A stretch of DNA of 40,192 nucleotides from a virus: positions 1 through 40,192 of the IMG/VR virus record IMGVR_UViG_3300043436_004107; one strand, 5' to 3'. Shown here piece by piece: positions 3,004 through 10,542 of the stretch (positions within the stretch are counted from its first letter, which is position 1; every line of letters begins with the position of its first letter). Under the pieces are notes generated by a model, which was not told the DNA's origin, did no database searches, and was given only the letters and a program-made list of their open reading frames with translations. The position numbers and the translations under genes were made by a program.

Positions 3004-3930
3004 ATGAACACACAATTTTCTTCAATCGACTCTTTGTTGTCAAGCATCGAATCTACACAGGCATCAAGCATTAGCACGCTTCAGGAAGTAGGCTTAGATT
3101 GGCGCGTTAATCGTGTACAATTGTATACACCTGATGGCACACCAGTAGACTATTTCGCTAACCAGCGAGCCGACAATTCAGAGGTTCTTGCGGTAGTTAG
3201 TGATGGTTATCAAATCTTTCAGAATGAGGAAATGGTAGAGCTATGCGAATCGCTTGCAAATACCTTTGACTATAAAATACACAAAGGTGGGCAAATGGAT
3301 GGTGGGCGCAAAGTTTACATTCAACTTGAGTCTGATAGCGTGTATGGCATAGGCGAAAATGATGATACGATTAACCGCTATATCACAGCAGTTAATTCGC
3401 ATGATTGCACTACTTCACTATCCTTTGGTTCACTTGGCTTTACTATTAGTTGCAAGAACACTTTCTTTGCCGCTGCCCGTTCAAAGAACATGAGCCGCAT
3501 CCGCCACACTTCATCTATGCACGAACGAATTGACGCTGCAAAGAGACAAATCGAAGGATTAAAGATGGAGGAAAAGAGCCTGTATGAAAAGTTCTTTAGT
3601 ATGGCAAGTGTAGAAGCCACACCCAAACACATTGCACAGGTTGTTAAGCGTACACTTGAGATTGATATTAACCAGCGTGCAAGTGATTTGAAGGAAAACT
3701 ATTCAACCCGTAGAATAAACTTGGCCGAAAGTTTACTTTCCTCAATTAAGCGTGAGATGAGTTACAAAGGCAATACATTGTGGGGGCTTATGTCTGGTGT
3801 AACTCACTACACTTCGCACGTTCAATCAGCACCAAATCGAGCGGAGGGTAGAACTGAAAGTAAATTGATAGGACAGGCTCAAAAAATGGATGCAACCGCA
3901 TTTGCATACTTGAGCGACGTTATCGCATAA
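3004..3930 (+). CDS. DUF932 domain protein (phage/plasmid-like protein)
   Basis: 308 aa. The body matches the DUF932 family (TIGR03299 phage/plasmid-like proteins) in order: WRVNRVQLYTPDG, VVSDGYQIFQNEEMVELCE, then KVYIQLE and RYITAVNSHDCTTSLSFGS, then SCKNTFFAAAR and a helical C-terminal half. The biochemical role of the family is not established; it is common in phages, plasmids and mobile elements, usually in early or accessory regions. Length is typical. The start is fixed by the leader element ending just before it. A hairpin 21 bases after the stop probably ends its transcript. Confidence 0.85.
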   Translation: MNTQFSSIDSLLSSIESTQASSISTLQEVGLDWRVNRVQLYTPDGTPVDYFANQRADNSEVLAVVSDGYQIFQNEEMVELCESLANTFDYKIHKGGQMDGGRKVYIQLESDSVYGIGENDDTINRYITAVNSHDCTTSLSFGSLGFTISCKNTFFAAARSKNMSRIRHTSSMHERIDAAKRQIEGLKMEEKSLYEKFFSMASVEATPKHIAQVVKRTLEIDINQRASDLKENYSTRRINLAESLLSSIKREMSYKGNTLWGLMSGVTHYTSHVQSAPNRAEGRTESKLIGQAQKMDATAFAYLSDVIA

Positions 3931-6755: not shown

Positions 6756-7607
6756 ATGAATCAGATTGAAAAAGCAGCAGCTTTTGACATTGAACGCGTC
6801 AAAAGTTATCTAAGAAGCATGAACCTTGCTTCGAATTTAACTCAAGCAGAGGTAACTCAATTTATTGAAATTGCACAGGGATTTGGCCTTAATCCTTTTA
6901 AGCGTGAAATCTACGCAAGTAAGTACGGCAATAACTTTTCTGTAATTGTAGGCTATGAGACATACATCAAAAGAGCAGAGAGAAGTGGTCGTCTTGCTGG
7001 ATGGAATGTAACTACCGATGGTAAATTGGATGATGGCAGTCTACGGGCAATTATCACAATTCACCGAAACGATTTTACTCACCCATTTGTGCATGAAGTT
7101 TTCTATTCAGAGTACGTGCAAAGAACTAAGGAAGGTCGTCCTACTAAGTTTTGGGCAGATAAGCCTTATACCATGATTAAGAAAGTTGCAATGGCTCAAG
7201 GTTTCCGACTTTGCTTTTCCGACGAGTTAGGAGGAATGCCGTACACAGCAGACGAGCTTCCTGACCATGTAGGCCAAAATCAAATTGTGATTGAGCCTAA
7301 AGATGAAAAAGCACCTTTAATAGTTTCCAATCAGGAGGTATATGACAAAATTCTCGTTTGCGTGGAAATGGATTGCCTTGCTGAGATTTGGAAGTCGAAT
7401 CCTGAGTTACACAACCATGAAGAGTTTAAGAAACTCGTAACTGAAAGGAAGGCTTGGATTTCAGAATTTGATAGAGTAGAGAATATGCTTGAGAAGATTA
7501 ATGCTTGTAACAGCGTTGATGAAGTGGCTGACCTGTTAAGAGAAGAAACAAGTAAAGAACTACTTGAAGCGGGTGGAAATAAGATTGAAAGTTTAACTAA
7601 TAAATAA
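6756..7607 (+). CDS. bet: Single-strand annealing protein Bet (RecT/Red-beta family)
   Basis: 283 aa. Promotes annealing of complementary single strands during phage recombination and replication. The family core is clear: FGLNPFKREIYASKYGNNF, then VGYETYIKRAERSG, PFVHEVFYSEYVQ, and FWADKPYTMIKKVAMAQGF ending LCFSDELGGMPYTADEL, as in Bet proteins. Residues after about 190 are a variable helical tail. No Exo-type partner is adjacent; the VRR-NUC protein at 14274 is the only other recombination-type nuclease seen. The replication protein and SSB follow within 4 kb, giving a usual annealase-replication cassette. Confidence 0.9.
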   Translation: MNQIEKAAAFDIERVKSYLRSMNLASNLTQAEVTQFIEIAQGFGLNPFKREIYASKYGNNFSVIVGYETYIKRAERSGRLAGWNVTTDGKLDDGSLRAIITIHRNDFTHPFVHEVFYSEYVQRTKEGRPTKFWADKPYTMIKKVAMAQGFRLCFSDELGGMPYTADELPDHVGQNQIVIEPKDEKAPLIVSNQEVYDKILVCVEMDCLAEIWKSNPELHNHEEFKKLVTERKAWISEFDRVENMLEKINACNSVDEVADLLREETSKELLEAGGNKIESLTNK

Positions 7608-7613
7608 ATAAAA

Positions 7614-8036
7614 ATGGAATCAGTTATGGAAACAGTAGAGAAAACTATTACAAACGTAGAAGCAAAAAAACAGCTTAAAAAAGACATAAAAGAAAAGTAT
7701 GGAACTATCCAAAAGTTTTGTGAGATTGCAGAATTTTCTTATTCTAAAATGAACATGCTTTTTGCAAATCGAATGAAAAAAGAAAGCGAGGATAAGATGA
7801 TAAGTCAGGTTGAGGTTTTGGTTAATCAAATGGTCAAGCAAATGGATAACCAAATCATGACTGAGGACGAAAGAAAGAGCATCCGAGGCCTCATGTTTTC
7901 CAAGCACAAAAACGTCAGAACTTTTTGCATGAACCATGAAGAGTTTAGCATCACTTTCGTGTCTAAAATTATCAATGGTCAGCGCAGAAAAAAAGATAAA
8001 AAGTATGAACGTTTTTTAAGTGTAATTTCACAATAA
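7614..8036 (+). CDS. Putative DNA-binding protein with duplicated HTH-like unit
   Basis: 140 aa. Two halves resemble each other: KEKYGTIQKFCEIAEFSYSK followed by a MNMLFANR segment (residues 25-53) and SKHKNVRTFCMNHEEFSITF followed by VSKIINGQRRK (about 95-126). Each has the layout of a Cro/CI-type helix-turn-helix, with a short helix, a FC turn, and a recognition helix ending in a basic NR/NG motif. Lys-rich overall. Its place between bet and the DUF1376 gene suggests it could bind the origin or act as an early regulator (inference). A second ATG lies two codons in. Confidence 0.6.
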   Translation: MESVMETVEKTITNVEAKKQLKKDIKEKYGTIQKFCEIAEFSYSKMNMLFANRMKKESEDKMISQVEVLVNQMVKQMDNQIMTEDERKSIRGLMFSKHKNVRTFCMNHEEFSITFVSKIINGQRRKKDKKYERFLSVISQ

Positions 8037-8041
8037 AACCA

Positions 8042-8833
8042 ATGAGTAAAGACCCAGCGTTTCTTTTTTACTCTTCTGATTTTTTGGCTGGAACTCAAGA
8101 CCTTACTATGGAAGAAAGAGGTCAATACATCACCTTGCTTTGCTTGCAACATCAGAAAGGTCATCTTACCGAAAAGATGATACGGCTATGCTGCGGCAAT
8201 GCCACGGCAGATGTCATGGCAAAGTTTCGGCAGGATGAAAATGGCCTATTTTTTAACGAAAGATTAGAAGAAGAAATTGGGAAACGCAAGAATCATTCTG
8301 ATAAACAACGAGTTAGGGCTATCGAAGGATGGAAAAAGAGAAAAAACAATGATTGCCAAACTGATGCCACGGCACATGCCACGGCATATACCACGGCAGA
8401 TGCCGCGGCAATGCCTAATAATATATATATAAATAATAATACTATTACTAAGTTAGAAGATATAGTTATTAGTAAAACATCTAATGAGTTAGAACCTATA
8501 CTCAAAGAAAAAGAAAAAGAAAAAGAAAGTTTGTCTAAAATTTTGATTACTCACCCGCTTCAAGTTTTCATCCGCGATAACTGCCCACAGGTTTCAAAAC
8601 TCAAAAAACAGATTACCGCTGATGAATGTGAAAAGCTACTTTCCAAATTCAACAACACGGAAATAGCAGACACACTTGTCGCAATGGAGAACTTCAAACA
8701 ACTCACAAGCAAGTACGTCAGCGTTTATCTCACATTAAACAACTGGTTAAACAGGAGACCCAATGAATCAACTACCCGCAACAACCCAAACAATCGAGGA
8801 GCAAATTACGAAAATGCGCTTCGGAACTTTTAA
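8042..8833 (+). CDS. DUF1376-type replication initiation protein (lambda O position)
   Basis: 263 aa. The N-terminus (PAFLFYSSDFLAGTQDLTME followed by ERGQYITLL) is the DUF1376/YdaU-type winged-helix domain found in phage replication initiators. Residues about 108-124 form a four-unit [DHY]-A/T-T/A-A repeat encoded by 12-bp DNA iterons, then an Asn-rich, AT-rich linker, then a helical C-terminus (ITADECEKLLSKFNNTEIAD). The gene order bet, this gene, 290-aa gene, ssb parallels lambda O-P, and the iterons with an adjacent AT-rich tract suggest that the protein binds its own coding region as an origin. The next gene starts inside its last 71 bases. Confidence 0.8.
   Translation: MSKDPAFLFYSSDFLAGTQDLTMEERGQYITLLCLQHQKGHLTEKMIRLCCGNATADVMAKFRQDENGLFFNERLEEEIGKRKNHSDKQRVRAIEGWKKRKNNDCQTDATAHATAYTTADAAAMPNNIYINNNTITKLEDIVISKTSNELEPILKEKEKEKESLSKILITHPLQVFIRDNCPQVSKLKKQITADECEKLLSKFNNTEIADTLVAMENFKQLTSKYVSVYLTLNNWLNRRPNESTTRNNPNNRGANYENALRNF
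8189..8232 (+). repeat. Upstream iteron cluster in the DUF1376 gene
   Basis: Related 10-mers TGCTGCGGCA (8189), TGCCACGGCA (8200), TGTCATGGCA (8212) and AGTTTCGGCA (8223), spaced 11-12 bp. The TGCCACGGCA copy is identical to units of the second cluster. Confidence 0.65.
8353..8410 (+). repeat. Four-copy 12-bp iteron array
   Basis: TGCCACGGCA (8365), TGCCACGGCA (8377), TACCACGGCA (8389) and TGCCGCGGCA (8401) lie exactly 12 bp apart; a degenerate fifth copy (TTGCCAAACT, 8353) keeps the phase. The core is nearly palindromic, TGCC-NN-GGCA. Confidence 0.8.
8411..8490. other. AT-rich stretch next to iterons, candidate unwinding element of the replication origin
   Basis: Directly after the iterons comes an AT-rich run with TATATATATAAATAATAATA at its start, continuing to about 8490 with few G or C. 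Iterons followed by an AT-rich segment inside the initiator gene is the layout of the lambda origin in gene O. Confidence 0.6.
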
Positions 8834-9635
8834 GGGCAAAGAAATCGTTCTTGCTCACCACGAAACCCGAATATGCGATTTAAGCGATTTAGAGCCACTC
8901 AAACAAGCTCTGCGGTATGTTATCACCTTAATCGGATTAAAGTCCGAAAATATGCCCTCAGAATCGCAAAAAATGGTATTGTTGGATTTTATTCAGAGTG
9001 AACTTTGCTATTTTAGTCCTGAAGAGTTTAAAATTGCCTTCAAACTTGCAGCAGCAAAAAAGCTCAATTGTGATGTTGAACACTTTCAGAATTTCAGCGC
9101 AAACTATGTTGGAAGAGTTATGGACGCATACTCAAACTACAAAGCAAATGCAATGAGAGAATACAAGTCGCAACTTGAGCAAGCCCCTGTTGAAGTAGAG
9201 ATGACCCAAGAAGAAAAGACACTTGTGTTTTACGAATTTGTTGAAACTTATATTGTAAAAAAGTTTGAGGCTTATCGTGAGACAGGTGTGCTTCAGGGAA
9301 CACTTAGTGGATTTGGAGCGGTATTTAGTACGCTGGAGGACAATCTAAAACTACTTCAACTGTCAATTGATGAAAAGAAACAGGTTTATGAAGTAGCCAA
9401 ACAAATTCATCAAGCTAAAAACGCAAGCAAAAAGCCAACAAGCAAAGATGAGGCAAAGCAAATCAGGGTACTTTTAGAAAGAACACTCAAAGAAGGTTAT
9501 GATAATGTCTATGAGGGTGAAATCAAAAAGCTCTGCTATGAGATGTGCGTCAAAAGTTTTTACGATGACTTAATTAAAAATAAACGAGATTTACGCCAAA
9601 TTATTGAACAATTTAAACAAGAACAGTATGAATGA
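8763..9635 (+). CDS. Putative replication protein (helicase-loader position)
   Basis: 290 aa. Overlaps the initiator gene by 71 bases and takes the place of lambda P, the helicase loader. Visible features: N-terminal RFGTFKGKEIVLAHHETR, a helical region with SPEEFKIAFKLAAAKKLN and FSANYVGRVMDAYSNYKANA, and a long charged helical C-terminus. There is no Walker motif, so it is not a DnaC-type ATPase. The role is inferred from position and general layout; it could also be a DnaB-interacting primosome factor of another type. Confidence 0.6.
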   Translation: MNQLPATTQTIEEQITKMRFGTFKGKEIVLAHHETRICDLSDLEPLKQALRYVITLIGLKSENMPSESQKMVLLDFIQSELCYFSPEEFKIAFKLAAAKKLNCDVEHFQNFSANYVGRVMDAYSNYKANAMREYKSQLEQAPVEVEMTQEEKTLVFYEFVETYIVKKFEAYRETGVLQGTLSGFGAVFSTLEDNLKLLQLSIDEKKQVYEVAKQIHQAKNASKKPTSKDEAKQIRVLLERTLKEGYDNVYEGEIKKLCYEMCVKSFYDDLIKNKRDLRQIIEQFKQEQYE

Positions 9636-10185: not shown

Positions 10186-10542
10186 ATGAATAAAGTAATC
10201 CTATCAGGCAATGTGGGCGCAGAGCCACAATTTAAACAAACTGAAAAAACAGCAATTTGCAATTTCAGAATCGCAGTAAACGACAAGTTTAAGAAGGACG
10301 CACCACCAACTTGGTTCACCATCTCAACTTTCGGTAAGAGCGCAGAATTTGCAAATAAGTACATCAAGAAAGGCACGAAAGTCTTAGTTGAAGGTAAAAT
10401 CCAGCTCGATGAGGTTGAGAAAGATGGCGTTAAAAGACTTTTTGTATCAGTAATCTCAGACAATGTTGAGCTTATTGGCGGCAAGACTGATGCTCCATCT
10501 GAATCAAACGGACTTGAAGAAGATAAAGCCTTACCATTTTAA
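10186..10542 (+). CDS. ssb: Single-stranded DNA-binding protein
   Basis: 118 aa with one OB fold. N-terminus MNKVILSGNVGAEPQFKQTE, then CNFRIAVNDKFKK, TWFTISTFGKSAEFANKYIK, and KVLVEGKIQLDEV are classical SSB strands. The C-terminal tip EEDKALPF corresponds to the acidic DDDIPF tail that recruits replication and repair partners. Shorter than host SSBs because the linker is brief. It would coat single strands exposed during phage replication and Bet annealing. Confidence 0.93.
   Translation: MNKVILSGNVGAEPQFKQTEKTAICNFRIAVNDKFKKDAPPTWFTISTFGKSAEFANKYIKKGTKVLVEGKIQLDEVEKDGVKRLFVSVISDNVELIGGKTDAPSESNGLEEDKALPF

Follow-up and report, generated by a model that had tools for sequence, protein, structure and literature searches.

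The gene and its replication neighbourhood

Repeated short words inside a DUF1376-type gene of a virus raise the question of whether this gene harbours the replication origin on which its own product acts. We analysed the gene within the window, i.e. the whole 40,192-bp virus record, whose left half carries a block of replication and recombination genes on the + strand (Table 1). The protein encoded at 8042-8833 matched PF07120 with 24.0 bits and an E-value of 5.2e-5, covering positions 5-85 of the 86 of the model. The gathering score of 30.1 was not reached, i.e. the protein is a recognisable, divergent match. A Pfam search up to E 0.1 returned DUF1376 alone, with no match to lambda O (Phage_rep_O), Phage_rep_org_N or DnaD. 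Among the PHROGs, 9327 ('primosomal protein') matched with an E-value of 3e-15.

The gene that follows the DUF1376 gene is a DnaC-like loader in the relatives L021 and L148 and a primase-like gene with a CHC2 zinc finger and a Toprim domain in L034. RecT and SSB in the window together with these DnaC-like and primase-like neighbours in relatives fit a replication setting. The gene at 8763-9635 of the window belongs to no named family; its place in the position of a DnaC-like loader makes it a candidate for a new type of loader.

Table 1. Coordinates of the features in and around the DUF1376-type gene.
Feature	Position	Strand	Basis and remarks
RecT	6756-7607	+	Pfam
Upstream gene, probable HTH protein	7614-8036	+	phrog_925, HTH DNA binding protein
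DUF1376-type gene, probable initiator	8042-8833	+	ORF, 263 aa, 792 bp
N-terminal domain	8042-8356	+	predicted winged-helix-like core and long C-terminal helix ending GWKKRK
Cluster 1, iteron-like	units 8189-8198, 8200-8209, 8212-8221	+	within the DNA-binding-domain coding region
Cluster 2, four phased 12-bp units of TGCCACGGCA type	8365-8410	+	codes for the inter-domain linker; kept in relatives
A+T-rich stretch, probable DNA-unwinding element	8413-8480	+	84% A+T; sequence only
C-terminal helical domain, swappable	8546-8770	+	alignment, model
Downstream gene, PHROG 26016	8763-9635	+	overlaps the DUF1376 gene; slot of a DnaC-like helicase loader in some relatives
Single-strand DNA-binding protein (SSB) gene	10186-10542	+	Pfam SSB, E 2e-26; same replication block

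Two clusters of short units

The sequence-only reading had described four 12-bp units in perfect phase at 8365, 8377, 8389 and 8401. Positions and phase were confirmed with a spacing of 12 bp throughout, but only two of the four are exact repeats: 8365 and 8377 carry TGCCACGGCA, while 8389 reads TACCACGGCA and 8401 reads TGCCGCGGCA. The related cluster it had placed at 8189-8232 was borne out, with TGCTGCGGCA at 8189, an exact TGCCACGGCA at 8200, TGTCATGGCA at 8212 and a weak fourth unit at about 8223-8232. Because the first spacing of cluster 1 is 11 bp and only the following one 12 bp, the units at 8189 and 8200 are in different codon phases. With at most one mismatch TGCCnnGGCA occurred at 13 sites in the 40 kb, and seven of the 13, including all four exact ones, were located within the 792-bp gene; the numbers expected by chance are about 10 for the whole window and about 0.2 for the DUF1376 gene. 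The array at 8364-8415 was the top-scoring tandem repeat of the window, and no second array of TGCCnnGGCA was found elsewhere in the 40 kb.

The upstream HTH gene has repeats as well: TTGGTTAAnCAA-like words start at 7818, 7830 and 7842, in 12-bp phase (7818-7853). In L012, TTGGTTAACCAA words are present both in the upstream gene (2760-2795) and in the initiator linker (3358-3393), and the linker of L024 has seven of them (1250-1399). The TTGGTTAAnCAA-like words upstream in the window lineage may be remnants of an earlier origin, or they may be sites for some other protein.

The A+T-rich stretch and GC skew

An A+T-rich stretch had been noted directly after the array. Indeed, the 60-mers starting at 8416-8418 contain 88% A+T, which is the maximum of the window, tied with 23739. 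Among 70 relatives, 58 had the most A+T-rich 60-mer of the gene no more than 60 codons after the N-domain, where 27% would be expected from a uniform distribution. The stretch encodes a peptide rich in N, E, D, K and I in the relatives. Cumulative GC skew, which the sequence-only reading had named as a check, was computed over the window and was uninformative: there was no origin signal at 8.3 kb, and the curve tracks gene orientation with a turning point near 15 kb, where gene blocks converge.

Relatives and word classes

Scans of viral and genome contigs yielded about 200 loci, which were reduced to 71 divergent genes for comparison. Annotated phage and plasmid collections contained few relatives, 14 control genomes had no PF07120 match, and a further search for the upstream gene gained no additional phage. 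In most of the 71 genes the N-domain is followed by a linker with repeated words, an A+T-rich stretch and then varied C-domains. The word depends on the lineage; we found TGCCnnGGCA, AACCTA/TAGGTT (ACCTA/TAGGT), CATATG, TTGGTTAAGCAA, ATACCAAAT, AGATAACCC, TCCGAGCGA and others. In most classes cluster 1 and the linker carry the same word, and in other lineages both clusters change together. Some genes, e.g. L033, L039 and L084, have the linker array without an array at cluster 1.

Selection on the DNA

As a null, 20,000 synonymous versions of the DUF1376 gene were drawn from the codon usage of the phage itself. Not one of the 20,000 recodings matched the gene in the number of words that come as near to the consensus or nearer, or in the lag-12 identity of the linker; for cluster 1 taken alone such identity was ordinary (p = 0.15). 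The words employ the codons GCC and ACG, which are rare in this phage. In 37 relatives with an N-domain at least 70% identical, codons 52, 54, 55 and 56 were invariant wherever the amino acid was kept, the counts for cluster 1 being 33/33 for GGC, 35/35 for GCC, 24/24 for ACG and 35/35 for GCA. The invariance of these cluster 1 codons extends to every TGCC-class member in which the amino acid is retained, while Val58, two codons past these, showed free synonymous variation.

A de novo search for the most-repeated 9-mer against synonymous shuffles was not decisive, with p = 0.04 for the window and many relatives not significant, because A-rich words dominate. Its place was taken by a comparison of cluster 1 with the linker of the same gene. 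Cluster 1 and the own linker shared 444 7-mers, while synonymous recoding gave 153 ± 15. By word class, with words of fewer than two G/C left out, z was 17.1 for TGCC, 14.6 for ACCTA, 8.4 for CATATG and 4.6 for the others. For eight array-less chromosomal homologues z was about 0 (0.4), and neighbouring regions of the N-domain gave z-values of only -1.5 to +2.2 in the same test. Relatives that retain both clusters with different words show that selection acts on the DNA itself.

The repetitive, ATA-rich linker peptide (DATAHATAYTTADAAA) and the near identity of the units could also stem from a tandem duplication of recent date or from a peptide repeat with a function of its own, the DNA word being a by-product. 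Yet neither is compatible with the recoding results, with a word that is kept in divergent relatives and in other reading frames, or with its covariation with cluster 1, where the encoded peptide is another one and forms part of a structured domain. In relatives with 11-bp spacings the linker word lies in another frame and specifies SHGNATA instead of ATA-ATA. A word that occurs in more than one codon frame excludes a functional repeat at the peptide level. We looked for relatives that keep the protein repeat without the DNA words and found the reverse, i.e. words that are kept while the peptide changes. The sequence-only reading had left two explanations for the conservation of synonymous positions, a function at the DNA level or a very recent tandem duplication. 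The latter is excluded by the relatives, which keep the word across divergence and frames; the former is favoured by the recodings, the invariant codons of cluster 1 and the persistence of the words across frames. Taken together, we attach next to no probability to the by-product explanation.

The word and the N-terminal domain

The AlphaFold2 model of residues 1-105 had a mean pLDDT of 92.6 and was helical, with one short beta-hairpin and, at the C-terminal end, a long helix; we call this a predicted winged-helix-like layout. In BFVD the N-domain shares its fold with named DUF1376 proteins; Foldseek returned many of them with E-values down to 1.6e-6 and TM-scores up to 0.90, and further matches included Lin1244/Lin1753-like and replication proteins. 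Sequence and fold searches of the PDB with the N-domain gave nothing significant, and a PDB search with the C-domain model, which was built from only 7 sequences, gave no match. The C-domain probably contacts the helicase or a helicase loader.

Natural domain swaps bear on the question of which domain the word belongs to. L004 shares the word with the window and has an N-domain 87% identical to that of the window, while its C-domain is unrelated. In L012 and L024 the C-domain is close to that of the window (76% and 73% identity), but the N-domains are only about 30% identical and the word is TTGGTTAAGCAA. By this double dissociation the word goes with the N-domain rather than the C-domain, which is what one would expect of a word that the N-domain reads. 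The linker is at the same time the junction of these clear swaps (window against L012 and L004), and the repeats might mark or promote recombination between N- and C-terminal modules without a role in replication. We consider this very improbable, because cluster 1 is located inside the N-domain, away from the junction, and yet shares the linker word. In addition, the words of the window and of L012 differ, so they offer no shared homology for that exchange.

The sequence at the end of the long N-domain helix goes with the class of the word. GWxKRK was found with TGCC in 16 of 17 cases, GGRPK with ACCTA in 14 of 20 and RNNRKK with CATATG in 11 of 13. The mutual information between helix end and word was 0.88 compared with a permutation maximum of 0.39, values that include shared ancestry; moreover, the motif adjoins the linker, which makes joint inheritance without direct contact possible, and some GGRPK codons themselves include part of the ACCTA word. 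We see an even chance that in the large DUF1376 family a part of the origin lies within the very sequence that encodes the DNA-binding domain and that the word was switched repeatedly together with the helix-end motif in the manner of a recognition code. If true, the same bases encode the protein region and form the word that it reads, and the two must coevolve.

A probable origin inside a probable initiator gene

Judged from the alignments and recodings, the sites exist, are selected as DNA, covary between the clusters, follow the N-domain and adjoin an A+T-rich stretch in most relatives; the window gene itself combines repeated sites under DNA-level selection with an adjoining A+T-rich stretch. 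By analogy, the N-domain, the A+T-rich stretch, the exchangeable C-domain and SSB or DnaC-like neighbours fit the layout of lambda O and SPP1 gp38. We thus favor the view, and with considerable confidence, that the protein is a phage replication initiator (replisome organizer) of this type with the origin inside its own gene. This supports the sequence-only reading, in which the DUF1376 protein would bind its own gene as lambda O does. Points against it are the GC skew, the Pfam score below the family threshold, the lack of lambda O, Phage_rep_org_N, DnaD and PDB fold matches, and a downstream gene whose unnamed family does not mark it as a helicase loader. The N-terminal DUF1376 domain would bind the TGCC(nn)GGCA units of both clusters (8189-8221 and 8365-8410), and the protein-DNA complex formed there would melt the A+T-rich stretch beside it at 8413-8480. 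The C-domain would recruit the host replicative helicase, probably together with the next gene product, and theta replication by the host replisome would start from the clusters.

On the other hand, the units could be operators through which the DUF1376 protein or another phage regulator represses or times the replication operon, with replication starting elsewhere. Short, partly dyad-symmetric words at a spacing of 11-12 bp have the looks of operators, and the gene upstream, which has internal repeats of its own, probably codes for an HTH protein. However, the clusters lie deep within the gene and in no promoter position, they are followed by the A+T-rich stretch in most relatives, and their words go with the N-domain of the gene even where the C-domains are unrelated. 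Furthermore, related proteins are labelled primosomal in PHROGs, and the L012 protein matches 'replisome organizer'. We regard operators as the sole function as unlikely; an origin and an autoregulatory site can coincide, and the operator reading may be partly true.

Comparison with known systems

In lambda O the N-terminal part binds DNA and the C-terminal part faces the helicase. The origin of lambda lies in the middle of gene O and consists of repeated binding sites (iterons) followed by an A+T-rich tract (PMC7466680). The window gene resembles O and ori-lambda in being a probable initiator gene with a probable origin of its own, where repeats precede an A+T-rich tract. Unlike lambda O, its protein has no Phage_rep_O match, and unlike lambda, there is a second cluster inside the DNA-binding-domain coding region. 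The units of 10-12 bp at 11-12 bp spacing are also shorter than the lambda iterons.

SPP1 gp38 binds the direct repeats of oriL inside gene 38 beside an A+T-rich unwinding element and acts with a loader and a DnaB-type helicase (PMC6316719). The likeness to organizers of the gp38, Lin1244 and Phage_rep_org_N type is seen in the BFVD matches of the N-domain, while the window protein differs from Phage_rep_org_N organizers by lacking that Pfam match. SPP1 has a distant second origin, oriR; a counterpart is unsupported in the window because a second word array was not found there. RepA-type iteron plasmid origins also have tandem direct repeats with an A+T-rich stretch alongside; their repeats are bound by an initiator, as proposed for the window. 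Plasmid iterons usually lie beside rep, outside the gene, and are longer.

The N-domain of the window protein is homologous to the N-terminal domain of DUF1376 (PF07120)/YdaU proteins, whose genes in phages are often found beside DnaC-like loaders or helicases, e.g. in an Acinetobacter prophage with a DUF1376 gene near a DnaC-like loader or helicase (PMC7760358). These proteins are catalogued as of unknown function or as 'primosomal protein', and in the open-access literature we found no description of embedded binding arrays or an origin for DUF1376 or YdaU. The principle of an origin inside the initiator gene is established by the precedents of lambda O and SPP1 gp38. What is new is that it extends to DUF1376, with a second cluster in the coding region of the DNA-binding domain, short units at 11-12 bp and a repeated switching of the word in which both clusters take part.

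The proposal offers a testable function for DUF1376, a common family of phage proteins listed as of unknown function. It also narrows the site of a probable replication origin down to about 300 bp in dozens of phages and prophages, of which many belong to Bacteroidota, a group with few known phage origins. Because the words are self-embedded each genome reports an initiator together with its site, and recognition rules may thus be readable from sequence alone. The proposal would further yield initiators paired with their origins, from which vectors for bacteria that are hard to manipulate could be built.

Variant layouts

Some homologues depart from the common layout. L101, L103, L104, L105, L107, L109, L110 and L111 from Flavobacteriia and other Bacteroidota probably do another job, because both clusters and the A+T-rich linker are missing. 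In L028 (3001-3978) a segment with paired CxxC motifs (HNH-like) was apparently inserted into the linker and the linker array is gone; cluster 1 of this gene retains TAGGT words. Finally, L058, L060 and L063 have a related C-terminal segment, unrelated N-domains and repeated linker words, e.g. GGAACGGAGAT, GAACAGTAGCG and CCTAACAAAG; this points to other initiator families with a layout of this kind.
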